27,829 bases of DNA from a virus, in the IMG/VR virus record IMGVR_UViG_3300020118_000049, positions 1 to 27,829 of that record; one strand, written 5' to 3'. Both the position numbers and the translations under genes were made by a program. The notes under the pieces were generated by a model, which had not been told where the DNA came from, did no database searches, and was given only the letters and a program-made list of their open reading frames with translations. Of this stretch, positions 2,988-24,041 are shown piece by piece. How positions within the stretch are numbered: the first letter of the stretch is position 1; each line of letters opens with the position of its first letter.

Positions 2988-3018
2988 AACCAACACACGC
3001 TTGATTAGGGATAAACAA

Positions 3019-3519
3019 GTGCCATACAAAGATAAAAGTGTCAAAAGGGCTAGAGACGCCGCCGCCTATGCCGCAGACAGAGAAGCCGGCAAAAAAAGAA
3101 ATAAAGATTGGCGGGAGGCGAACCCAGAGAAGTATGAGGAACAGTTAAAAAAACGAAGGGCAAAGGCTGTCGACCGAGAAAAAGAAAAAATCAGGCACGC
3201 CGAGTATAGGGCGGCCAATAAAGAAAAAATACGTCTAAGCAACAAAAAATACAGAGAGTTGAATCCCCACAAAATAGTTGCCCAAGGACTAGTAAGAAGA
3301 AACATTAAAAAACAAGCAACGCCAAGTTGGGCAAATCAAAATAAAATCAAGTTGATATACCGGGATGCCCGAGAGTTTAGGGCACACGGTCTTGATGTCC
3401 ACGTTGACCATATAATTCCTTTAAAAGCAAAACTAGCGTGCGGACTTCATAACGAGTTCAATTTAACGATAAAGCTCGCCCATTGGAACGACAGTAAAGG
3501 AAACAAACTAGATGTATAA
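3019..3519 (+). CDS. HNH endonuclease
   Basis: A very basic protein of about 166 residues. I chose GTG at 3019 because AGGG (3007-3010) sits 8 bases upstream; an in-frame TTG at 3001 lacks a site. Residues 1-100 are a Lys/Arg/Glu-rich helical region with repeats such as ANPEKYEEQLKKRRAK, typical of phage HNH nucleases. The C-terminal HNH core has VDHIIPLK (Asp130, His131), then CGLHNEFNL and NDSKGNK. These enzymes nick or cut DNA and often behave as free-standing homing endonucleases. The gene is visibly A-rich (43 percent GC in one sampled 60-base line, where replication genes give about 57), in keeping with recent arrival. It ends by overlapping the helicase start. Confidence 0.85.
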   Translation: MPYKDKSVKRARDAAAYAADREAGKKRNKDWREANPEKYEEQLKKRRAKAVDREKEKIRHAEYRAANKEKIRLSNKKYRELNPHKIVAQGLVRRNIKKQATPSWANQNKIKLIYRDAREFRAHGLDVHVDHIIPLKAKLACGLHNEFNLTIKLAHWNDSKGNKLDV

Positions 3520-5828: not shown

Positions 5829-6275
5829 ATGGCACTAGATTTAGAAGACAGATTTTGGAATTATGTGGACCTAAGAGGACCGGATGAGTGTTGGGGGTGG
5901 TTGGGTTCTTTTGATCGGGGAGGGTATGGAAGATTCGATTCCAAAGGTGCTCACAGAGTATCGCACAGTTTAAATGTGGGGGCAATACCGGATGGAATGT
6001 GTGTTCTCCATCGTTGTGATAACCCGGCCTGTGTGAATCCGAAGCATTTATTTTTAGGTACTTGCAAAGATAACGTCGTTGATATGGTTTCTAAAGGAAG
6101 AAACGCTAAAACCACTGGGGAGGATAATTTTGGTGCCAAGCTAACTAACCAACAGGTGCTGGCCATAAGGGAAGATGGTAGAACGAACGCGACAATAGCT
6201 GCGGAGTACATGGCTGGCGTGGTTGCAATTCGTAACATTAAAACCCGCCGCAAATGGAAAAGTTTAATCAGTTAA
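5829..6275 (+). CDS. HNH homing-type endonuclease (paralogue A)
   Basis: A 148-residue protein preceded by GGAGAAGG. It follows the phage HNH_3 plan: an N-terminal RFWNYVDLRGPDECWGW module, the HNH core CVLHRCDNPACVNPKHLFLG with its metal/catalytic His and Cys residues (about 58-78), then KDNVVDMVSKGR, and a C-terminal helix-turn-helix-like segment ending TRRKWKSLIS. It is clearly related to the proteins at 8666-9103 and to the N-terminal half of 14266-15027. It sits directly behind promoter P3, so the insertion probably captured or displaced the original first gene of that unit. Expected activity: site-specific nicking or cutting of DNA. Confidence 0.9.
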   Translation: MALDLEDRFWNYVDLRGPDECWGWLGSFDRGGYGRFDSKGAHRVSHSLNVGAIPDGMCVLHRCDNPACVNPKHLFLGTCKDNVVDMVSKGRNAKTTGEDNFGAKLTNQQVLAIREDGRTNATIAAEYMAGVVAIRNIKTRRKWKSLIS

Positions 6276-8484: not shown

Positions 8485-8676
8485 ATGCCTTATGCGGTTC
8501 GAGTAGGAAACGACGGATTATTAAAACAGGGTCGAGTGGACCCACTGTCAGCGACTGTTTATCACCATCCGAGTTCATACGGAAAGGCCATCAAGGCTTT
8601 CGAGGAGCGGTTTCCGGATCACAAAGGCCAGTGCAAAGCCTTCGTATGGAAACGGGGTGTCCTAAGTGAGATTTAG
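8485..8676 (+). CDS. Small phage protein, 63 aa
   Basis: A 63-residue protein with GGGGATAG before its ATG. It begins MPYAVRVGNDGLLKQG and includes HHPSSYGKAIKAFEERFPDH and CKAFVWKRG. It appears soluble and basic, with no recognised motif. Its last codons overlap the GTG of the following HNH gene by 11 bases. It is the first gene after the hairpin. It is supported by the ribosome-binding site and fit within the gene chain; function unknown. Confidence 0.6.
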   Translation: MPYAVRVGNDGLLKQGRVDPLSATVYHHPSSYGKAIKAFEERFPDHKGQCKAFVWKRGVLSEI

Positions 8677-9103
8677 CGACAGGTTCTGGTCTAAAGTGGC
8701 CGTTGCGGGTCTGGACGATTGTTGGGAGTGGACCGCATCGGTCAACAAGAACTACGGCGTTTTTTGGCTAGACGGGAAAAACGTAAAAGCGCACAGGGTG
8801 GCTTACGAATTATCTAAAGGTCCTATAGCCCCTGACAATAAAATACTTCACTCGTGCGATAACCCAATTTGTTGCAACCCAAATCACTTATCCCAAGGGT
8901 CGGACCAAGACAATTCCGATGATATGGTTGCAAAAGGGAGATCCGCTAAAGGAGAGAGAGTAGCGGCAAGTTTTTTAACGGAGGATCAGGTCAAATTCAT
9001 AAAGTCTAGCAATAAAGGCCCAACTGAGCTAGCGGCCATGTTCATGGCCACGAGATCCACTGTGAGTAAAGTAAAACTCGGCAGAACGTGGAGGCACATA
9101 TGA
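8666..9103 (+). CDS. HNH homing-type endonuclease (paralogue B)
   Basis: A 145-residue protein starting at GTG inside the end of the preceding gene. It has the same plan as the gene at 5829: RFWSKVAVAGLDDCWEW, then HRVAYELSKGPIAPDN, HNH core ILHSCDNPICCNPNHLSQG, DDMVAKGRSAKG, and a C-terminal HTH-like helix pair ending LGRTWRHI. The TGA (9101-9103) overlaps the polymerase ATG (ATGA), and the polymerase ribosome-binding site lies inside its last codons. It may therefore ride on, or control, polymerase translation. Known relatives nick DNA near polymerase genes of competing phages. Confidence 0.9.
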   Translation: MRFSDRFWSKVAVAGLDDCWEWTASVNKNYGVFWLDGKNVKAHRVAYELSKGPIAPDNKILHSCDNPICCNPNHLSQGSDQDNSDDMVAKGRSAKGERVAASFLTEDQVKFIKSSNKGPTELAAMFMATRSTVSKVKLGRTWRHI

Positions 9104-10923
9104 GGTTTTCAGAGGCTGAGTATATATCGTTCGATACGGAAACTACGGGCCTATCATGGCCCTCTGACAAGGCATTCGGGTTCAGCCTAGCTACACCGGA
9201 CGGCACGGCGGAGTATCACGACATCCGGCACTCGCCGCAGATGATCGACTGGTTCAACGACGAAATGAGCAGGTTCCGTGGGACGATAATCTGTCACAAT
9301 GCAAGTTTCGACTTCAAGATGGCCGAGGCCAGCAGCTTATATTTCCCTCTAGAGCAACTCGACGACACCGTAATCAGAGCATGTTTAATCAATGAACATG
9401 AGAATTCGTTCTCGCTAGATTACTTGTCCGAGAAGTATCTTAACGAACGGAAAGAACATGACATCTACCCCGAGTTAGCGGCCCTGTTTGGCGGCAGAGC
9501 CACTCGCGGGGTGCAGATGAAGAATTTGCACCGGGCACCTCCAGAGATTGTGCGCCCGTACGCTGTCAAGGATGCTTTGTTGACAATTCGGCTGTGGGAA
9601 TGGCAACAGGAAGAGATCAAGAAACAGGGCATCGAGAGGATAGTAGAATTTGAGCGCCGGGTCATGGTGCCTTTGATTAAGGCCGAGATGCGGGGCATAC
9701 GGGTTGATGCCGCTCGTGCTGAGAAGGCAATGGCCAAGCTGACCATAGAAATCGAGAATCAGCAGGCTGAGTTGAACTCGCTGGTGGGCGTCGATCTGAA
9801 TGTCAACAGCCCAAAGCAGGTTAAAGAGATATTCGCCCCCAAGAAGGACGAAACGGGGGAATGGGTGGCCGACAACGGGACTTATTTGAGCATGACCGAC
9901 AGTGGGAACCCGTCGTTGGATGCTGAGGCCCTGCGTTCCATGGAGGGCGATCGCCGTGCTGAGCTGATACTGTCGGTGCGGTCCACAGTAAAAACCCGTG
10001 ACACTTTCTTGGCGGGGCACGTTCTTGGGCACATGGTTGGCGACCGAGTTTATCCTAATATAAATCAGACCAAGGGCGAGGATTCCGGCACCGGCACCGG
10101 ACGACTGTCCTATACCAATCCAGCACTCCATCAGATCCCGTCCCGCAACAAGAAAGTGGCCAGCATCGTAAAGCCCGTCTTCTTGCCAGATGAAGGGTGC
10201 GATTGGATGTCCCTCGACATGAACTCGTTTGAAGTTCGCGTTTTCGGGCACTTGATCAACAATCCTACCATCAACGCCGCTTACGCTGCCAATGAACTGC
10301 TGGACCTGCACCAGTATGTGGCCGACATCACAGGACTTCCCAGAAACGCCGCCTATTCCGGTCAAGCTAATGCCAAACAACTCGACCTCTCAATGATTTT
10401 TAATTCAGGGAACGGGGCTATTGCCGATAAAATGGGAATGCCATGGGAATGGAACAGCTTCAAGAAGGACGGGAAAGTATTTAAATACAAGAAGGCCGGA
10501 CCCGAGGCCGAAGCGGTGATTGCTCGTTACCACGAGCGAGTGCCGGGGGTCAAAGAATTAGCCCAACGGGCAAAAGACGCTGCCGAAGCACATGGATACG
10601 TACAAACTAGGCATGGCCGCCGTCTGAGATTTCCTAGAAAGTACAAAACTTACAAGGCATCCGGATTGGCCATTCAGGCCACCGCAGCCGATTTGAACAA
10701 AGAAATGTGGTTATTGCTCAGCGACATGGAGCCGGAAATGCGGGGTCATTTAATTATGAACACCCACGACAGCTATGAGCTAAACGTCCCCAAGGGGACC
10801 GATGCGCTGAGCCTTAAGAATGAAATTCAACACGGAGTGCGGATCGCCAATCCTTGGTTCAGAATACCATTGGTCGTAGACTTAAATGGCGTGGGCACAG
10901 ATTACTGGAATTCTCAAAAATGA
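9100..10923 (+). CDS. dpoZ: Family-A DNA polymerase with 3'-5' exonuclease, DpoZ-like
   Basis: A 607-residue replicative polymerase. I prefer ATG at 9100, with GGAGG at 9090-9094, over an in-frame GTG at 9088. The proofreading domain is intact: Exo I FDTETTG (Asp12, Glu14), Exo II CHNASFD (Asn67, Asp71), Exo III YAVKD (Tyr154, Asp158). In the polymerase domain, motif A is LDMNSFEVR (Asp373, Glu378) and motif C is HDS (556-558; HDE in E. coli Pol I). Motif B, ANAKQLDLSMIFN, keeps Lys426 but has Gln, Leu and Phe where Pol I/T7 have Arg, Phe/Tyr and Tyr. Known 2-aminoadenine phages carry polymerases of this class (DpoZ) next to purZ and datZ. The name rests on context, not on a measured preference. 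The TGA overlaps the primase ATG. Confidence 0.88.
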   Translation: MRFSEAEYISFDTETTGLSWPSDKAFGFSLATPDGTAEYHDIRHSPQMIDWFNDEMSRFRGTIICHNASFDFKMAEASSLYFPLEQLDDTVIRACLINEHENSFSLDYLSEKYLNERKEHDIYPELAALFGGRATRGVQMKNLHRAPPEIVRPYAVKDALLTIRLWEWQQEEIKKQGIERIVEFERRVMVPLIKAEMRGIRVDAARAEKAMAKLTIEIENQQAELNSLVGVDLNVNSPKQVKEIFAPKKDETGEWVADNGTYLSMTDSGNPSLDAEALRSMEGDRRAELILSVRSTVKTRDTFLAGHVLGHMVGDRVYPNINQTKGEDSGTGTGRLSYTNPALHQIPSRNKKVASIVKPVFLPDEGCDWMSLDMNSFEVRVFGHLINNPTINAAYAANELLDLHQYVADITGLPRNAAYSGQANAKQLDLSMIFNSGNGAIADKMGMPWEWNSFKKDGKVFKYKKAGPEAEAVIARYHERVPGVKELAQRAKDAAEAHGYVQTRHGRRLRFPRKYKTYKASGLAIQATAADLNKEMWLLLSDMEPEMRGHLIMNTHDSYELNVPKGTDALSLKNEIQHGVRIANPWFRIPLVVDLNGVGTDYWNSQK

Positions 10924-13145
10924 CAGCTGATAGGATGTTGATAGACATAAAGGAAATACAAAAAGCTGACAGTCTGCCGTTCGAGGAAGCGGTTTACCAC
11001 GCAGCGATATGCTACACCAAAGCCGGTCTTCTGGTTCTTCCTCTGGAGCCAAACAGCAAGAAGCTTCCTGCCGGGGGCGGCATCAACTACATGTCAGCCA
11101 GCAACAAAGAGGCCACCATCAAAAAGTGGTTCCACCCTGACAACGGGAAGTACAGGGGGTTCAACATAGGGATCGGGTGCGGGACCAATCAGGGTGTCGG
11201 GGTGCTGGACGTAGACGCCAAGTCGATAAATGGCACCACGGGGCTGAAAGAGTTGGAAAAGATAGTGACCAAGGAAGGCCCACTGCCCCCCGGCCCCCGG
11301 CAATCGACCCCATCAGGGGGCTACCACTACTTTTACGTTTGGCAAGACAACTTCGCGTCATCTAGCAGTAAAGTGGCCAACGGGCTGGACACCCGAGGGG
11401 GAACAGCGGATCGTTGCACAGGGCACGTGGTGGCATACCCGTCAGTACTAGGCACTAAGAAGTACGCATGGGAAGAGGGCGGGGAAGTACCGGACATGCC
11501 CGAATGGTTGTCAGTAAGCTTGGGCCAGCCGTGGAAAGAGAAGCCCAAAGAGTTGTTGGAGCGTCAAGAAGTACCGGTGCACCAGATAAACAGAATGCTG
11601 ACCATAATCGACCCGGATTCCCTGTCCTATGAAGACTGGGTAAAGGCAGGAATGGCCCTAAAATCAACGTGCGGAGAAGATGGTTTAGAACTGTGGGACG
11701 AGTGGAGTGCTGGAGGGTCCAGAAGGAAGAACGATGAGTGCAAGTCTAGATGGAAGACATTCCTAGAAGATGGGCCAGTAGGGTTCGGGACGTTGCTGTT
11801 CATGGCCAAGGAAGCCGGGTGGAGGCCATTGCCGGGGGATGTGTCTAATAACAACCTAGACGCTGAAATAGAAGAACGAGTGCTGGAAATGAACAAGAAG
11901 TATGCTCTGGTTCGTATGGGCAAAAACATGATCATAGCCACGTTCGCAAATAATGGGAATAAAGAGAAGGTAGGATTCCTGTCGATGGGGTCTTTCGAGA
12001 CCATGGCAGCGCCAGATAAAGTGCAGATTCCAACCAGAAATGGGTTCTCGGAAAGACAAATGTCCGACATCTGGTTGGGCAGCAGCCAACGCAGGGCTTA
12101 CTACGACGTCGGAATTTACCCGAACCAAGACGAGCCAGCAGGCACCCTCAACATGTGGAACGGATGGGGAGTCGAGCCGTCGCAAGCAGGGTCGTGCGAC
12201 AGATACTTGACCCACATGCGGGACATAGTGTGTTCGGGGGAGGTAACTATTTACGAATGGCTATTGGACTGGATGGCCGATTGTGTACAGGACAGCAGAA
12301 ACCTTAAAGGGTCGTGCGTTGTCCTGAGAGGAATAGAGGGGTGCGGAAAGGGAGCATGGGCAGACAACTTTGGGCAGTTGTTCGGCAAGCATTACACACA
12401 CTTGATCGACGCCGAACGGATGACCACCAGATTCAACAGCTTGACATCTGACAGCATCATAGTTTTTGCTGACGAAGTTCTGTTCCCCGGTGATAGAAAA
12501 GCGGCCAACGTTTTAAAGGGTCTCATTTCAGAACGCCGAATGACCAGAGAAGCCAAGGGAATTGACAGTATAGAAGTTGACAATCTAAACCACGTAATTA
12601 TTGCCTCGAACGAGGAGTGGATAATCCCAGCAGGGCCACAGTCGAGGCGTTGGTTGGTGTTGAACGTGAATGGCAGGATGGCGAACAATAAGACCTACTT
12701 TAAAGGTTTGTGGGACGAAATGGACAATGGCGGCAGGGCGGCACTCTTGTATTTGTTGAAGCATAGGAAAGTAACTAATAACTTGCGGCTGGCCCCGACC
12801 ACCGAAGGCTTGTTAGAACAACGTCGCATGTCCCATCGTCACGACAGCCTGATGCAATTCTTTATTGAAGCCCATAGCAAGGGCGGGTTTGAGACCATGG
12901 ACGCTGAGGCCCACATGGGCGACGTCGCCGGGTGGCCCAAGAAACTCATCAAGTATGAGATGTTCAATGAGTACAGGGTGTGGTGCAAGGAAACCCGAGT
13001 AAGCACTTACGACATGTTGTCCCTGCCGGTATTCTCATCCAAGATAGCGGATTACGGATTCCAGACTGACGGGAAGATCATAAACGTTCCGGAAGCATCA
13101 GTGTTTAACGAAATACTCGAGACTAAACAAGGTCTGAAGCTTTAA
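10920..13145 (+). CDS. Prim-Pol primase fused to SF3-like (DUF5906) helicase
   Basis: A 741-residue multidomain replication protein. ATG at 10920 overlaps the polymerase stop (ATGA); an in-frame ATG at 10935 is an alternative. Residues 20-230 are an archaeo-eukaryotic primase/polymerase domain: VGVLDVDAK (Asp97, Asp99), TPSGGYHYF (His136), LDTRGG. About 245-330 resembles PriCT-2 (DSLSYEDWVKAGMAL, DECKSRW). From about 440 a DUF5906-type helicase has Walker A GIEGCGKG (471-478), Walker B IIVFADE (Asp518, Glu519), and SNEEWIIP plus an Arg pair (SRRW). Similar fusions act as primase-helicases in phages such as NrS-1. It would prime and unwind DNA for the adjacent polymerase. It ends just before promoter P4. 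Confidence 0.9.
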   Translation: MTADRMLIDIKEIQKADSLPFEEAVYHAAICYTKAGLLVLPLEPNSKKLPAGGGINYMSASNKEATIKKWFHPDNGKYRGFNIGIGCGTNQGVGVLDVDAKSINGTTGLKELEKIVTKEGPLPPGPRQSTPSGGYHYFYVWQDNFASSSSKVANGLDTRGGTADRCTGHVVAYPSVLGTKKYAWEEGGEVPDMPEWLSVSLGQPWKEKPKELLERQEVPVHQINRMLTIIDPDSLSYEDWVKAGMALKSTCGEDGLELWDEWSAGGSRRKNDECKSRWKTFLEDGPVGFGTLLFMAKEAGWRPLPGDVSNNNLDAEIEERVLEMNKKYALVRMGKNMIIATFANNGNKEKVGFLSMGSFETMAAPDKVQIPTRNGFSERQMSDIWLGSSQRRAYYDVGIYPNQDEPAGTLNMWNGWGVEPSQAGSCDRYLTHMRDIVCSGEVTIYEWLLDWMADCVQDSRNLKGSCVVLRGIEGCGKGAWADNFGQLFGKHYTHLIDAERMTTRFNSLTSDSIIVFADEVLFPGDRKAANVLKGLISERRMTREAKGIDSIEVDNLNHVIIASNEEWIIPAGPQSRRWLVLNVNGRMANNKTYFKGLWDEMDNGGRAALLYLLKHRKVTNNLRLAPTTEGLLEQRRMSHRHDSLMQFFIEAHSKGGFETMDAEAHMGDVAGWPKKLIKYEMFNEYRVWCKETRVSTYDMLSLPVFSSKIADYGFQTDGKIINVPEASVFNEILETKQGLKL

Positions 13146-13156
13146 GAAGGTTCACA

Positions 13157-13185
13157 TTGTGTGTAGGCGCGAGATGTGGTATACT
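13157..13185 (+). promoter_or_regulatory. Extended -10 promoter P4 ahead of purZ
   Basis: TTGTGT (13157-13162), 17 bases, TATACT (13180-13185), with TGG before the -10. The -35 is weaker than in P2 and P3, so the extended -10 should matter. Bases 13171-13213 match P5 (16262-16304) without gaps at about 35 of 43 positions, including GAGG (13187-13190) and CCTC (13206-13209) spaced exactly as in P5. It gives the Z-synthesis genes their own start separate from the replication operon. Confidence 0.8.
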
Positions 13186-13226
13186 AGAGGTTGGGGGCAT
13201 GGTGTCCTCATTAACGGAGATTCAAA

Positions 13227-14264
13227 ATGAGCAAAAAACTAGATGTGATCGTGGATTTACAGTTTGGAAGTACGGGCAAAGGCCTTCTGGCCGGTTACTT
13301 GGGGACAAAGAACGGCTACGACGCAGTTATTTCAGCCAACATGATGAACGCGGGGCATTCCGCATATGCCCCGGACACCGGCCAGTTGTTTGTCCATAAA
13401 GTTCTGCCCTCCGCCATTTTTGGAGAGAATCTGAAAGTAATCGGCGTGGGGCCTGGATCTGCTTTTTTTATTGACCGGCTGGAAGAGGAATGGAAGGCCG
13501 TGTGCCAGTATCGGGGTGATTTGGTGTTGTTGATCCATGAGGCGGCGTGCGTGGCCACAGACCAGCATAAGGAGGCTGAGCAGAAGACCCTCTCGCGTAT
13601 CAGCAGCACCATGCAAGGCAGCGCCGAAGCCCTGATCGACAAGATTCGCCGCAAAGAGGGTGCGACCGCCAAATACCATATCGAGCAAATCGAGCACCGT
13701 CTTGGCCAGTACGGCGGCGTCGGGGTGCTGAGCCAGTTCGAGTGGCTGACTACTTTCGCCAACAAGGATTCGATCCTGTTGGAAGGATCTCAGGGGTATT
13801 CCCTCAGCCTCAGCGCCGGATTTTACCCATACTGCACCAGTCGTGATTGCACCCCGGCCCGAGTAATTGCCGATTGTTCCTTGCCGGTTGGTTGGCTGCG
13901 CGACATTTATGGCAGCTGCCGCGTTCACCCTATCCGGGTCGGGAACACCCCCGACGGGTTCAGCGGCGATTGGTATCCGGATCAGAAGGAAATGCATTTC
14001 TCTGATCTGGGCCAGCCCGATGAATTAACCACCGTCACTAAGCGGGTTCGTCGCATCGCCACGTTCTCAGAAATCCAAATCTTCGAGGCAATGTCTATGG
14101 CCACCCCCTCGACGGTGTTCCTTAATTTCGCCAATTATAGCGCGACAGACGCCGCCGATGCTATTGATGTCATTGACGGCATCGCGCAAACGTTCGGCTG
14201 TGGCGGGGTCAAGTTGATCGGAATGGGTCCCCGCCCCTCCGAAATCCACGAAGTGGAAGAGTAA
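13227..14264 (+). CDS. purZ: 2-aminoadenylosuccinate synthetase PurZ
   Basis: A 345-residue PurA homologue, much shorter than bacterial PurA (about 430). GGAG precedes the ATG, and an ATTAAC leader element lies at 13210-13215. The N-terminal nucleotide loop reads QFGSTGKG, with Ser15 where PurA (QWGDEGKG) has its catalytic Asp; this substitution is the known PurZ hallmark. The NAGHS segment keeps the catalytic His44. Downstream are HKVLPSAIF, EGSQGYSLSL, FYPYCTSRDCTP and a C-terminal GMGPRPSE. Known reaction: dGMP, Asp and ATP or dATP give 2-aminoadenylosuccinate (dSMP), which host PurB converts to dZMP. It acts in the cytoplasm. It is first in a unit with mazZ and datZ, which supports phage-wide replacement of adenine by 2-aminoadenine. 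Confidence 0.95.
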   Translation: MSKKLDVIVDLQFGSTGKGLLAGYLGTKNGYDAVISANMMNAGHSAYAPDTGQLFVHKVLPSAIFGENLKVIGVGPGSAFFIDRLEEEWKAVCQYRGDLVLLIHEAACVATDQHKEAEQKTLSRISSTMQGSAEALIDKIRRKEGATAKYHIEQIEHRLGQYGGVGVLSQFEWLTTFANKDSILLEGSQGYSLSLSAGFYPYCTSRDCTPARVIADCSLPVGWLRDIYGSCRVHPIRVGNTPDGFSGDWYPDQKEMHFSDLGQPDELTTVTKRVRRIATFSEIQIFEAMSMATPSTVFLNFANYSATDAADAIDVIDGIAQTFGCGGVKLIGMGPRPSEIHEVEE

Positions 14265-14265
14265 C

Positions 14266-15027
14266 ATGACAAAATCATTAGAGCGAAGGTTCTGGGGAAA
14301 GGTAAAGGTGGCTGGCCCCGATGAGTGCTGGGAGTGGCAAGCAAGGAGAATAAAAAGTGGGTATGGAAGCATGAGATGGCCCACTGAGGGCAATCCGGAT
14401 TCCCAAAAGCTGGGACATAGGGCGTCATGGGAGATACACAACGGCCCAATTCCGGAAGGAATAATGGTATGCCACAAATGTGACAACAGAGGGTGTGTCA
14501 ACCCCGACCATCTTTTTTTGGGAACAGCCAAGGACAACGCTCAGGATGCAATATCGAAGGGAAGGTTTGTGCCCCCCCAAGGAGAAGAACAGTGGGCATC
14601 TAAAGTAACCAGAATTCAAGCCATGCACATAAGACACTCTAGTAAGTCTTTGGGGGCGTTGGCTTTGGAGCACGATTTAAGTAAGGCCACCGTGAGTAAC
14701 ATAAAGAAAGGAAAAATCTGGAAACCCACTAACGATGTCCTGATGGCCATGATGGATGAGGTAGTGTCTTGGATACACCCGCTGTCTCCAAGTAGGAACC
14801 CTTTTGACACTAGCATAAAGCTGGCGGGAGAGATATCAGAGCTACAACACGTTTTACATACCGGGGATGGTGATGTCGGGACCGAGGTGGCAGACTGCAT
14901 GATATTGTTGTTGGACTTATGTTTCCTGTTGAAAATAAACCCGGACCAAGAGTTGATGAAAAAGATGGGGATAAACAAAAACAGGAAGTGGCGCGAAGTA
15001 ATGGGGTGTCTGAAACATGAAAAATAA
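14266..15027 (+). CDS. mazZ: HNH endonuclease fused to MazG-like MazZ pyrophosphohydrolase
   Basis: A 253-residue two-domain protein one base after purZ. Residues 1 to about 155 are a full HNH homing-type nuclease (paralogue C): RFWGKVKVAGPDECWEW, core VCHKCDNRGCVNPDHLFLG, and HTH-like tail SNIKKGKIWKPT. Residues 160-253 are MazG-like: GEISEL (Glu189, Glu192), then EVAD (Glu207, Asp210) 14 residues on, and KNRKW. The canonical motif is EExxE-(12-28)-ExxD; the first Glu is Gly188 here. Known MazZ converts dGTP (or GTP) to dGMP (or GMP), feeding PurZ. The HNH stop codon is missing, so the frame runs straight through. Internal ATGs at 14743, 14749 and 14752 could start a free MazZ but lack a clear ribosome-binding site. 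The end overlaps datZ. Confidence 0.85.
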   Translation: MTKSLERRFWGKVKVAGPDECWEWQARRIKSGYGSMRWPTEGNPDSQKLGHRASWEIHNGPIPEGIMVCHKCDNRGCVNPDHLFLGTAKDNAQDAISKGRFVPPQGEEQWASKVTRIQAMHIRHSSKSLGALALEHDLSKATVSNIKKGKIWKPTNDVLMAMMDEVVSWIHPLSPSRNPFDTSIKLAGEISELQHVLHTGDGDVGTEVADCMILLLDLCFLLKINPDQELMKKMGINKNRKWREVMGCLKHEK

Positions 15028-15577
15028 TATCGATTCATTGATGGATTGCCAGCACGTTCGCCGCTGGTCTATGGTTCACACGGTGGCCGACAGCACAGTG
15101 GCTTCGCACTCGTTTAACGTAGCTATGATCGCCATGGCAATACGAAAGAAGATGTTCAACACCAACCACTTCAGCGAGATGGAGGTATGTTATTACGCGC
15201 TGATCCACGATGTGAAGGAAGCGCACACAGGAGACCTGCCGACCCCCACTAAAGTTCGAATGCGGGAGTGCGGGTTTGATCCCGAGAATTTTGACAAGAA
15301 CATTCCGGACGAAGATGAACCGCCGCCACACATCAAAGTAATAGTGAAGATGGCGGATATGATCGACAACTACTGTTTCATATACGAGTATGGGGCAGGC
15401 ACCAGAGCTAGAGAAGCAGCAGCAGAAGTCGAGGGGAGGCTGCGGACGGCCATTCAAGATGCCCCCTCAGATCTGCAGGCAGCAGCCGTCTACGTGCTGG
15501 AATACATAATAGAAAGAAAAAGTGGGCAAGACGAAGAAGGAAGAAAGCTTGCGGAAGACCGTGAAAGACTTAGCTAG
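15017..15577 (+). CDS. datZ: HD-domain dATP triphosphohydrolase DatZ
   Basis: A 186-residue HD-domain protein of the YfbR/DatZ type, starting inside the mazZ end (11-base overlap). Metal ligands are visible: His31 (VASHSFN), His64-Asp65 (LIHDVKEAHTGDLPTPTK) and Asp114 (KMADMID). Glu68 matches the YfbR catalytic Glu, and Arg16-Trp17 and Asp73 also match YfbR. Known DatZ enzymes strip triphosphate from dATP, leaving dA, and so keep adenine out of phage DNA. Length agrees with the family (about 175-190). Its place straight after purZ and mazZ makes the dATPase role far more likely than a general 5'-nucleotidase. The last 56 bases are shared with the next gene. Confidence 0.92.
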   Translation: MKNNIDSLMDCQHVRRWSMVHTVADSTVASHSFNVAMIAMAIRKKMFNTNHFSEMEVCYYALIHDVKEAHTGDLPTPTKVRMRECGFDPENFDKNIPDEDEPPPHIKVIVKMADMIDNYCFIYEYGAGTRAREAAAEVEGRLRTAIQDAPSDLQAAAVYVLEYIIERKSGQDEEGRKLAEDRERLS

Positions 15578-15980
15578 GTCCGTAGATTCCTCGATACTTA
15601 CGCTGTCGTGGGTCGAAAGCCCGATGACCAGTGCGGGAATACCGGACCTTAACTACTGCTGTTATGGTAGAGAGGGCTGGGTCGAGCTAAAGGCGGGGCC
15701 GGACATTGAGATCCGTCCCACCCAAGTTACATGGTTCAAGGCAAGAATAGAGGCTGGAGGATGGCCTCTGTTCCTTATAAAGTGGGGAGAAACTTACACA
15801 GTGTGCCCCGGATCTGCGGCCACCAGTCTGCGCCGGGACCCGTCCGAGGAAAACGTGTTAAGAGAGGCCAGCCGAATATGGGTTGGTCGGGTGCCCGAAA
15901 GGGAATTTTTGAGAGTGTTAAAGAATCCGGAGAAGGAATATGAAACAGCTAGAAGAAACGTTGAAGAATCGGGGCGATAG
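15522..15980 (+). CDS. VRR-NUC domain nuclease
   Basis: A 152-residue protein starting at GTG inside datZ (56-base overlap). It has a PD-(D/E)xK core of the VRR-NUC type: SAGIPDLNYCCYG (Asp42), GWVELKAG (Glu55, Lys57), and RPTQVTWFKARIEAGG (Gln68), then PLFLIKWGETYTV. Phage VRR-NUC proteins are structure-specific nucleases thought to act as Holliday-junction or flap resolvases in replication and recombination. An alternative downstream start is possible, as the GTG has only a weak AGAAAG site, but the domain needs most of this length. It continues the replication block, and its end overlaps the next gene by 41 bases. Confidence 0.85.
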   Translation: MGKTKKEESLRKTVKDLARSVDSSILTLSWVESPMTSAGIPDLNYCCYGREGWVELKAGPDIEIRPTQVTWFKARIEAGGWPLFLIKWGETYTVCPGSAATSLRRDPSEENVLREASRIWVGRVPEREFLRVLKNPEKEYETARRNVEESGR

Positions 15981-16245
15981 TTACGGTAACTTTGCCGATC
16001 TGGCTAAAATGGCCCAGAAGCTGGAAGGAATTCTTGTTGTCAGCCACATGTCGGATGTCCAGAAAGAGGTCATGGGAATGATAGCCACCAAGCTGGCCAG
16101 ATTGGTGTGCGGCGACGCTAACCATTACGATAGTTGGCACGATGTGGCTGGTTATGCAACTCTGGCGGCAGGCGATCTGGTTAAAACGATGCCTGGAAAG
16201 GAACAGTTAAATTTGGGTCATGAAACCGCTGTTGCTAGGCGTTGA
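15940..16245 (+). CDS. DUF6378-like phage protein
   Basis: A 101-residue protein whose ATG follows GGAGAAGGA and lies inside the end of the VRR-NUC gene. It contains NRGDSYGNFADLAKMAQKLEG, then MGMIATKLARLVCGDANHYDSWHDVAGYATL, a pattern I associate with DUF6378 proteins common in phage genomes. No function is proven. The conserved Lys, Arg, Asp-Ser-Trp and Asp residues hint at a MazG-like helical nucleotide-binding fold, which would fit its position after mazZ and datZ, but this is inference. It is the last gene before promoter P5. Confidence 0.75.
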   Translation: MKQLEETLKNRGDSYGNFADLAKMAQKLEGILVVSHMSDVQKEVMGMIATKLARLVCGDANHYDSWHDVAGYATLAAGDLVKTMPGKEQLNLGHETAVARR

Positions 16246-21177: not shown

Positions 21178-22713
21178 TCAAAGCTCCGCTGACCACTGGT
21201 TGATGCTATTGATGAGCAACGTTCCGTTACCTGCAATAAGACCAGAAGCAACAGAAACCGTGAAATATGCGCCTGATGTTGTTGGATTCGGTGAAGAAAC
21301 AGAACTAACTGCCTGCGTACCACCAGCCGCCGTCGTAAGGGAACCAAGAGTCAGCGTGGTTCCTAGCGTCGGGGTTGTCCGCATGGTCACAGGGAAAGTG
21401 CTGACTATCAAGGCACTTGTTGTGCTGATTGCATGTCCAGAGTACTGCGCATTGGCAAGACAGTAGTATCGTTCGCATAAACTCAGTTCCACGCCGACAG
21501 GGCGTTGCTCGAACGGAGTAGCTGTCGCGCCCTGTTCAATCTGAACCTTGCCGAGCGTTCCCGCGTTGAACTCAATCGACATGACCGTTCCGGCGGTCTG
21601 ACCCACGATGAGCATCGGACTTGTTACGAATGACCCAGAAGGAGTAGCGCTGTTGATGCCAGCCCTAGCCTGCGCCGTTCCGGTCCACGAGAGGACATAG
21701 CTTCCGCCGGAAACATTCTTATCCTCTACGACTTGGATCAGCGTCTTGGCTGCGGCAATAGTGATCGTAGTGGAGTTGGGCAACTGTGTGAATGAGTAAT
21801 CCCCGCCCGACGCCCCGGCCTTCCACCGGTCGTGTCCGTAGATTCCTGCAGCCAGAGTTGCTGCTGACACGTACGTTCGTTGATTGATGCGGAAATCGCC
21901 GTTGAAGATGATGTTGCGAATACAGAAAGCCGATGTGCTCGGGCCACTGGTAGCCTCAACCGTATTAGGTCCAGCAGCAAGGAGGGTTTTGTTAGTAAGT
22001 ACTTCTGCTCCCGCCAACGAGGCAAAATCGGCATTGGTAAGTGCCGTATTGAACTGGGCTAGCGTTCCGGTAACACTATTACTGCCCAAGTCAATTGACT
22101 TGTTGCTCAGGGTAGCCGTACCGCTGGGGAGCACTTGTTCTGGGACAGAGGGGGTATCTGCTCTCAGCAACGCCACGTTCACCGCAGAAAGGCCGCTGTC
22201 GAGGGCACCCGAGTCCAGCGACACCACTACTGTGGTCAAGCTGGTGAACGCGGAAGATACCACGTACCCATAGACAGTGCCAGCCGACACCGAGGCCTGA
22301 ATCCGCCTGTTGACATGAAAGGTAGAGGTCAAGTTGCCGGGGACAGTAAAGGTGGTGGCGTTGACGAAGGTGGGGGTTGCCCCCGAACCCGTCCATTCCG
22401 AGGAGGACACAGTGACGTCATTGACCCCAGACACATTGTCGTAAGTGTATCCAATCACATTGTTGTTGGAATCCTCAGTGACGAACTTGTACTTCTGCCC
22501 AGACTGAAGCCAAATCTCATTCGGCACCCGGCCAGCGGAATCAAGAATGACCGGGTTGGGGTTCTGGACGGACTGCAAGCTGTCCGTCCAAGTAGCAGCC
22601 GGGGTGGTACTACCAGCAAGGAACGTGAGTATCTTGCCTCCGGCCAGCACCCGCCCTTGATTGTCGAACAACTGGGAACCGGCCCCGAACAAGGGAGAAA
22701 GGAATGCGCTCAT
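21178..22713 (-). CDS. Tail fibre / receptor-binding protein
   Basis: A 511-residue protein, GAGGTGG before ATG. Residues 1-95 (LSPLFGAGSQLFDNQGRVLAGGKILTF, SAGRVPNEIWL) form the conserved N-terminal domain that attaches phage appendages. The middle is Thr/Ser/Val-rich and repetitive (TLSNKSIDLGSNSVTG, LTNKTLLAAGPNTVEA), typical of fibrous trimer segments. From about 265, FNGDFRINQRTYVSAATLAAGIYGHDRW to KVQIEQGATATPFEQRPVGVELSLCERYY is a carbohydrate-binding-like beta-sandwich common in phage tail proteins. It should bind the host surface; no depolymerase motif is seen. Confidence 0.85.
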   Translation of the reverse strand: MSAFLSPLFGAGSQLFDNQGRVLAGGKILTFLAGSTTPAATWTDSLQSVQNPNPVILDSAGRVPNEIWLQSGQKYKFVTEDSNNNVIGYTYDNVSGVNDVTVSSSEWTGSGATPTFVNATTFTVPGNLTSTFHVNRRIQASVSAGTVYGYVVSSAFTSLTTVVVSLDSGALDSGLSAVNVALLRADTPSVPEQVLPSGTATLSNKSIDLGSNSVTGTLAQFNTALTNADFASLAGAEVLTNKTLLAAGPNTVEATSGPSTSAFCIRNIIFNGDFRINQRTYVSAATLAAGIYGHDRWKAGASGGDYSFTQLPNSTTITIAAAKTLIQVVEDKNVSGGSYVLSWTGTAQARAGINSATPSGSFVTSPMLIVGQTAGTVMSIEFNAGTLGKVQIEQGATATPFEQRPVGVELSLCERYYCLANAQYSGHAISTTSALIVSTFPVTMRTTPTLGTTLTLGSLTTAAGGTQAVSSVSSPNPTTSGAYFTVSVASGLIAGNGTLLINSINQWSAEL

Positions 22714-24041
22714 TTGCCCACCTCAAAGTTAACATGGGTTGCGTACCCCATTTCATGCAATTTTGGTAATGTCTCTTCCAGTTTCTCCCCGATATCGTCC
22801 CTGAGTATCGGGTTGGCCAAGTGAAGTTGCTTTGCTGTTTTGTAAGCCCTGCCAGTTGCCTGCTTGACGTCTTTGCCAAACCCTGTGATCACCAGAGCGT
22901 AATCCCCCGAGGTATTCCAGATTGGGCGGTTGACTGTCTTTTCTCCGTCGTGATCTGGCATGACGTCGATTTTGATCGACTGCGGGTGGAGGTGCTTCTT
23001 GTTGCCTCTAGTGACTCCGTAAATGGGGAAATCCGAGAGTTCTTCGATTTCTTTGTTACCGTGCGGAAAATCACCATGGGCCAGTACTAGGCAACAGCCT
23101 ATGTCCTCTTTGAAAGTCGTTGTGTCTTTGCCGTCGAGGGCATCCTTCATCCAGCTTATCGGATCGCCCTCTGTGGCCCCAAGCATCATGTTGGCGATAG
23201 GCCAGCCGAATCGGCAGGTGAATTCTGTTGGCCACGGGTTGCCTGATTCGTCGACCATGAACCCGATGGCAATGTCTCCGGTGTGGCCGAGCCGTACCAA
23301 CTCACTTTCAAGTTTGCCGAGAGTTTCATCCCCAATTTTGGATTCAGGGGTGAAATAAGCGATAGTTCCCATTTCACCCGTATTTGGACCATAATTGCTA
23401 CTCATAAGTTTCTTGTGTTCGAACGATTCGTTAAACTGGCCGACGAAACCTTTAGTGCCCATAAATCTGCTGACGCCAAGCTCGATGCCGGATATGAACT
23501 GCTGCAGCATTACCTCGCCCTTAGGCATCTGGCCCTGCTTTATAATCTTGTCCATCCAGTTGATCATGTCAGCGGCGTGTTTGGAAACGTAGGTAAGAGC
23601 TTTATCTTCGTTGTCGCCTAATGTCTTGAAGACCCAGTGGCCGTCCGTCTTTTCAACGTGTTTCTTGGCGTCGGCCATGGTTTTGAAAGTCTCATAGGGG
23701 GCGGCTTCAATGCCGACCTTTTCCATGATCTTCATACCATCTTTGCGACTGATTTCCAGATTGGCGGAGGCAACAGATGGGCCGAAAACCGGAAATCCCC
23801 TCTTCCGGAACGCTTCCAACTTGTCCACGTATTTGTCGTTGGAAGTGGAAATTATTAGGTCTGCCCATTTGACGCTGGGCACCCAGTTGTCGACCTTTTC
23901 AATCCCTTTGAAACCGTCGCCTGTCGCTTTGTTAATGGATGGTTTGTTATCAAGGAACCAACGCACTTGATGGCCAGCCTCCACAGCCCTCCAAGCAAAG
24001 GAAAGGCCAACGCCGTCAGTATCCACAATAAGAAGCTTCAT
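22710..24041 (-). CDS. PurD-like ATP-grasp enzyme
   Basis: A 443-residue protein with AGGG before ATG and a 4-base overlap with the fibre gene. It resembles phosphoribosylamine-glycine ligase (PurD): N-terminal MKLLIVDTDGVG, FGPSVASANLEISRK (about 86-100), FKTLGDN (Lys139), QQFISGIELGVSRF (Glu187), and YGPNTGEMGT (217-226), one of the most characteristic PurD strings. However, the PurD metal-site segment EFNxRFGDPE reads EFTCRFGWP here (Thr275, Trp280), so the Asn and the Asp-Pro-Glu are lost. Known PurD makes glycinamide ribonucleotide. The changed residues and the position in a structural operon suggest a different substrate, possibly a peptide or small-molecule ligation. Confidence 0.75.
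   Translation of the reverse strand: MKLLIVDTDGVGLSFAWRAVEAGHQVRWFLDNKPSINKATGDGFKGIEKVDNWVPSVKWADLIISTSNDKYVDKLEAFRKRGFPVFGPSVASANLEISRKDGMKIMEKVGIEAAPYETFKTMADAKKHVEKTDGHWVFKTLGDNEDKALTYVSKHAADMINWMDKIIKQGQMPKGEVMLQQFISGIELGVSRFMGTKGFVGQFNESFEHKKLMSSNYGPNTGEMGTIAYFTPESKIGDETLGKLESELVRLGHTGDIAIGFMVDESGNPWPTEFTCRFGWPIANMMLGATEGDPISWMKDALDGKDTTTFKEDIGCCLVLAHGDFPHGNKEIEELSDFPIYGVTRGNKKHLHPQSIKIDVMPDHDGEKTVNRPIWNTSGDYALVITGFGKDVKQATGRAYKTAKQLHLANPILRDDIGEKLEETLPKLHEMGYATHVNFEVGK

Follow-up and report, generated by a model that had tools for sequence, protein, structure and literature searches.

An HNH endonuclease module in one reading frame with MazZ in the predicted 2-aminoadenine gene cluster of an uncultured phage

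The IMG/VR virus record IMGVR_UViG_3300020118_000049, analysed here over its full length of 27,829 bases (hereafter the window), derives from an uncultured phage, is probably a fragment, and carries a cluster of genes for replication and nucleotide metabolism of the kind that replaces adenine by 2-aminoadenine (Z), together with an open reading frame in which an HNH endonuclease module and the nucleotide hydrolase MazZ are joined. The left two thirds of the window lie mainly on the plus strand and encode nucleases, a helicase, a single-stranded DNA-binding protein, a polymerase, a primase and the Z genes; the right third, on the minus strand, contains a tail fibre gene and other genes, most of them without an assignment. 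Megablast of the window against 50,697 records of a phage collection returned no match, and a scan of the window for tRNA genes found none. The nearest relatives are four IMG/VR contigs (L007, L087, L088 and L089), with PurZ proteins 58–66% and DpoZ proteins 73–75% identical to those of the window.

The cluster begins with dpoZ (9100..10923, plus strand), encoding a family-A DNA polymerase with a 3'-5' exonuclease domain. Its reading frame opens with a GTG at 9088, and the likely start is the ATG at 9100, where the match to a Shine-Dalgarno sequence is better. The protein scores 838 bits against the NCBIfam model phage_DpoZ_1 (NF038380, cut-off 500), its best match in the PDB is 7pbk at 711 bits, versus 104 bits for the Klenow fragment, and it is 51–55% identical to the polymerases of phages Bm1, BUCT555, phiVC8 and ZP6. 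We mapped published functional sites onto the proteins of the window, taking residue roles from PMC8342488 for PurZ and MazZ, PMC8065100 for DatZ and PMC8599892 for DpoZ. In DpoZ, the published exonuclease residues D26, E28 and D85, the clade residues L455, F459 and G548, and R161 and M165 of helix E2 are all identical in the window; numbered from the GTG at 9088, the exonuclease residues D16, E18 and D75 and the phiVC8-type signature F438, L434, G526, S562 and R419 are present.

The gene for PurZ, succino-2-aminodeoxyadenylate synthetase, occupies positions 13227..14264 (plus strand). The protein matches phrog_1211 at 5e-66, its best PDB match is phiVC8 PurZ (6fm1, 6e-84), followed by S-2L PurZ, and it is 50% identical to PurZ of Burkholderia phage Bm1 and 46% to that of phiVC8. 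Ser15 aligns with S14 of phiVC8 PurZ and with the catalytic Asp13 of E. coli PurA, as the first-pass annotation of this DNA had proposed when it placed a serine at the catalytic aspartate position. The published sites S23, T273 and T276, including the Asp-loop threonines, are conserved, as are most contacts to base and phosphate. In a tree of 21 sequences, in which E. coli PurA is the sole bacterial PurA and sits on a long branch, the window's PurZ falls inside the phage PurZ set, nearest to L087 and L007, with PurZ0 and E. coli PurA apart; the homology comparison that the first-pass annotation had suggested thus groups the protein with phage PurZ and not with that one PurA.

Downstream, a single open frame (14266-15027) encodes an HNH_3 endonuclease in full (residues 1 to ~153) followed by a MazZ domain (residues ~158 to 253), with no stop codon between them. 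The homing-endonuclease-like HNH_3 module (residues 1-153; 14266..14724, plus strand) matches PF13392 at 3e-14 and phrog_1872 at 5e-31, retains its HNH and CHxCDN...C.NP.H motifs intact (H70, N79 and H82 plus the zinc cysteines), and shares 36–44% identity with the HNH genes found elsewhere in the window and in L007. The MazZ domain (~14737..15027, plus strand), of the MazZ-1/DUF550 type of dGTP pyrophosphohydrolase, has S-2L MazZ (7ody, 7e-13) as its best PDB match and is 46–49% identical to the stand-alone MazZ proteins of L087, L007 and L089. The metal ligands E35, E38, E50 and D53, the guanine-pocket residues I56 and D60, and R83 (S-2L numbering) are conserved. The predicted structure of the MazZ half has a predicted local distance difference test (pLDDT) score above 90 over most of its length and again best matches 7ody (TM 0.77–0.82 of target, MazG-HisE fold); confidence is low for the HNH half, for which the alignment was shallow.

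DatZ, an HD-domain dATP triphosphohydrolase (15017..15577, plus strand), matches phrog_7076 at 1e-27 and, as its best structure, S-2L DatZ (6zpa) at 2.5e-9. The published sites R19, W20, H34, H66, D67, E70, P79, K81, K116 and D119 are conserved, and H31, H64, D65, E68, D114, R16, K79 and K111 are present in window numbering. At the positions that exclude ribose and the 2-amino group, W20 corresponds to W17 and I22 to M19, a position that ZP6 likewise fills with Met and phiVC8 with Leu.

All four Z-cluster proteins lie where the first-pass annotation had placed them, with the above scores far beyond chance, and the dATPase HD motifs and the MazG motif that it had named are borne out by the conserved HD metal site of DatZ and by the predicted MazZ fold and its metal ligands (all but E34). 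Its description of the layout needs revision. Of the adjacent and overlapping arrangement claimed for purZ, the MazZ domain and datZ, the overlap stands for the HNH-mazZ frame and datZ (11 bp) but not for purZ and the HNH-mazZ frame, which are 1 bp apart. The MazZ domain does not directly follow purZ, because ~450 bp encoding the HNH endonuclease intervene in the same open frame, a fusion that had been missed; nor does dpoZ adjoin purZ, because a 2.3-kb gene for a PrimPol/PriCT_2/DUF5906 primase-helicase (10920..13145, plus strand; Pfam PF09250, PF08707 and PF19263) separates them. A DNA primase gene occupies the same place between dpoZ and purZ in phiVC8 and ZP6, and the order dpoZ-primase-purZ-mazZ-datZ-nuclease-DUF6378 is common to these two phages and the window.

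Alignment-based scans of viral contigs for relatives of DpoZ and PurZ returned 80 loci each; a single PurZ protein used as query against viral contigs found none of the relatives that the alignment query did find. After deduplication, the set comprised 87 distinct PurZ loci, the window and five named phages included, and gene content was counted in the 74 whose sequence extends 4.5 kb or more beyond purZ. Profile searches detected datZ in 71 of the 74, MazZ of type 1 or 2 in 61, and the nuclease that follows datZ in 59, and the Z gene set is therefore a common cassette, recurring in scores of contigs; its diversity in sequenced phages has already been covered (PMC12884076, 2026). PurZ relatives also occur in metagenome-assembled bacterial bins (L246-L251) assigned to Verrucomicrobia, Alpha-, Gamma- and Deltaproteobacteria and Gottesmanbacteria, which are probably Z-phage contigs binned with their hosts. 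Separately, Flavobacterium phage MaF61 encodes a PurA-like protein of ~447 aa (L256:968-2311), annotated as adenylosuccinate synthetase, in which Ser takes the place of the catalytic Asp (FGSSGKG); it sits on a long branch and is possibly a further PurZ-like type.

Given the Z-gene set, the structure matches, the retention of published residues and the grouping of PurZ, we consider it very likely, at a probability of roughly 0.9, that the window carries the operon for replication and nucleotide metabolism of a phiVC8-like phage in which Z would replace adenine. What is observed directly is the presence and order of the genes, their homology and the residues of the active sites; the catalytic activities and the presence of Z in the virion would follow by extension from characterised homologues, and the resistance to restriction proposed in the first-pass annotation is likewise an inference. 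In such a pathway, MazZ would convert (d)GTP to (d)GMP, PurZ would use ATP to combine dGMP with aspartate into the dZMP precursor, host enzymes would complete dZTP, DatZ would remove dATP, and DpoZ would favour Z and thereby make ZTGC DNA. With an HNH gene inserted at the mazZ start, and provided that the frame is real, MazZ would be made as the C-terminal part of a joint HNH-MazZ product. The proposal in the first-pass annotation that this is a Z-DNA phage is thus supported at the sequence level by family scores, structures, residues, gene order and the tree. Its premise that this gene set suffices calls for caution: in E. coli, the published conversion of adenine by the S-2L triad was significant in amount (PMC8342488), and the steps from dSMP to dZTP are carried out by host enzymes (PMC12884076).

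Several observations weigh against the Z-genome assignment. The window's PurZ scores 288.8 bits over the full length of the NCBIfam model amino_Aden_PurZ (NF038379), 11 bits under the cut-off of 300, although the scores with PurA models are much smaller still (at most 107 bits). The S-2L MazZ ligand E34 is Gly in the window; this is the one MazZ metal ligand reported as variable (PMC8342488). Q29 of DatZ, reported as strictly conserved, corresponds to Ser26, with Ser or Asn in the sister loci L087 and L089; reported as structural and not catalytic, this residue is not treated as defining.

We weighed two other accounts of the cluster. The genes might be relics or partly inactive in a phage with ordinary adenine-containing DNA, a state proposed for phiJL001, where a DpoZ-like polymerase occurs without Z synthesis genes (PMC8599892). 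An HNH gene inserted before MazZ could impair it, but all four genes are intact with conserved catalytic residues, the biosynthesis genes that phiJL001 is missing are present here, and MazZ is not universal, as some loci with PurZ and DatZ have no detected MazZ; we regard this account as very improbable. That the window's PurZ is a PurA paralogue, making adenylosuccinate from IMP as an auxiliary purine gene, is scarcely credible. The protein does contain the PurA Pfam domain, and a PurD-like ATP-grasp gene elsewhere in the window hints at purine metabolism; against this, Ser replaces the essential Asp, the match to phiVC8 PurZ at 6e-84 compares with 3e-12 for archaeal-type PurA structures, the protein lies within the PurZ set of the tree, and datZ, mazZ and dpoZ are its companions.

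The Z cluster is a further example of a known set, and the HNH-MazZ architecture is its odd feature. In L087, L088 and L089, a free mazZ gene of 102 aa starts at the purZ stop, which is where the HNH module begins in the window; here, the ATG at the usual mazZ start position opens the HNH module and the native mazZ start is gone. Because of this correspondence, we read the arrangement as an HNH homing endonuclease gene that appears to have inserted at the mazZ start and now stands in frame with MazZ. HNH genes are absent from the purZ/mazZ site in L087, L088, L089 and L007, a patchy presence. Profile searches found HNH and MazZ in one frame in none of the other 86 PurZ loci. The fused frame (P0004) used as a query retrieved, among the matches listed, proteins related to the HNH half only and no further HNH-MazZ fusion, and the architecture was not found in the literature searched.

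On balance, and as a matter of judgement rather than computation, we lean towards a real, translated fusion. Less likely, in our view, is the rival account, in which an error of sequencing or assembly, or else an indel of very recent date, joins an HNH gene that stops by itself to a separately translated mazZ, with the Z cluster unchanged. Other HNH proteins end at the equivalent point (WRHI*, WKSLIS*), an out-of-frame TAA lies right there in TGGAAACCCACTAACGATG, and the frame occurs on one contig only, an exact junction pattern search of viral contigs having found no second copy, although near copies may escape such a search. An artefact would, however, have to be reconciled with a frame that stays open across 253 codons and two conserved domains, and with a MazZ that is preceded by internal ATGs (14743, 14749 and 14752) none of which has a good ribosome site. 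The frame may encode a working protein, represent a transitional state or reflect a sequencing error of one or two bases; whether or not the fusion is real, MazZ itself is intact and the case for Z-DNA does not change.

A second HNH gene (8666..9103, plus strand; PF13392, 1.6e-8) abuts dpoZ: its stop codon overlaps the dpoZ start (ATGA), and its last codons contain the dpoZ ribosome site (GTGGAGGCACATATG). L007 has a different HNH gene (L007:7125-7700), 36% identical to the window's mazZ-fused HNH, at the mazZ/datZ junction. This gene begins at the position of the datZ ATG in L087, and datZ goes on in another frame; no ATG is found at the usual datZ start of L007, only ATT/ATC codons after AGGAG. 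An HNH gene is also annotated between the polymerase and PurZ0 of Arthrobacter phage Suppi, and in L152 an HNH gene lies immediately upstream of purZ. A group I intron housing the HNH gene was considered and rejected, as no Rfam match was found in the window, nor at the locus at a relaxed threshold. The first 15 kb contain five or more genes of the HNH or endonuclease VII-like kind (785-1492, 3001-3519, 5829-6275, 8666-9103 and 14266-14724), making this a nuclease-rich phage.

Homing endonucleases at phage gene boundaries are known (PMC10448857), and the simplest reading is that these HNH genes would be homing endonucleases settling at gene boundaries, at the 5' ends of Z genes. A more specific proposal, which we consider speculative and rather unlikely, is that HNH-MazZ truly exists as a protein of two domains and that the HNH proteins at dpoZ and mazZ in the window and at datZ in L007 recognise the starts of Z genes and cut DNA with Z in place of A. 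If so, these nucleases would have adapted to ZTGC DNA and would pass from one Z phage to another by capturing the start codon of each gene that they target. The question has some reach: the Z pathway was worked out in 2021 and is common in metagenomes, as the 87 distinct PurZ loci indicate, and homing endonucleases in Z genomes should need to cut Z-DNA, which resists many restriction enzymes. HNH proteins able to do so would be tools for Z-DNA, and would show that a phage does not escape its selfish genes by replacing adenine.

The end of the operon and its surroundings hold further features. The gene next after datZ (15522..15980, plus strand; phrog_2165, 2e-14) encodes a nuclease that we call VRR-NUC-like, a name that is our own reading, as there is no Pfam match; it holds this position in most phiVC8-like Z loci. 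The operon ends with a DUF6378 protein (15940..16245, plus strand; PF19905, 8.5e-8), found in the same slot in phiVC8, ZP6, BUCT555, Bm1, L002-L005, L007, L008, L011 and L012. Among the 74 loci, DUF6378 is present in 25, DUF5664, a dATP/dGTP diphosphohydrolase of shown activity (PMC12884076), in 21, and both in none (hypergeometric 2.6e-5 on a simple count); on the PurZ tree, each label changes several times, and the mutual exclusion is not significant in a pairwise test that takes relatedness on this tree into account. DUF6378 is predicted to form a confident four-helix bundle (pLDDT 87) whose model had no match to a nucleoside triphosphate pyrophosphohydrolase in the PDB. The candidate role of a MazG-like or DUF5664-like nucleotide hydrolase was rejected, since profile comparison with DUF5664 and MazZ was empty and no fold match was obtained.

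Upstream of purZ, at 13157-13185, lies a promoter-like sequence, TTGTGT-17-TATACT, whose -10 element is preceded by TGG, a resemblance to consensus that is below the scan threshold; the phiVC8 annotation likewise places a predicted promoter upstream of purZ. Beside tail-type genes, the minus strand encodes the PurD-like ATP-grasp protein (22710-24041), in which DTDGVGLSFA stands in place of the GNGGREHA-like start motif of E. coli PurD; because this motif is replaced, its substrate may be something other than phosphoribosylamine. A search for this gene in 40 Z-phage records gave no match, and its best phage relative, at 37%, is in MW202796, whose annotation shows no PurZ.

Among characterised systems, the Z cluster of phiVC8 and ZP6 resembles that of the window most closely in gene order, with DpoZ 51–55% and PurZ 46–49% identical, but these phages carry the short MazZ-2 type, whereas the window has an S-2L-like MazZ-1 behind an HNH nuclease. 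The S-2L triad of purZ, mazZ and datZ comprises the same enzymes in the same order, with conserved MazZ and DatZ site residues; S-2L, however, has no DpoZ, uses PrimPol (PMC8065100) and has a stand-alone MazZ, in contrast to the DpoZ and fused MazZ of the window. MazZ is also free-standing in the related contigs L007, L087, L088 and L089, of which L007 has its different HNH gene at the mazZ/datZ junction. In the DUF5664-DUF550 protein of Acinetobacter phage SH-Ab 15497, MazZ (DUF550) likewise forms the C-terminal half of a larger protein, but its N-terminal partner is a dATP/dGTP diphosphohydrolase, whereas that of the window is an HNH nuclease. A partial parallel to the window's HNH-mazZ locus, and one that likewise has no intron or intein signs, is provided by the ShiLan element in phage methylases (PMC11855218), where an HNH gene also lies in or beside a phage gene whose frame stays open; the ShiLan HNH is in another frame inside its host gene, while that of the window shares the frame of mazZ and sits at its 5' end.

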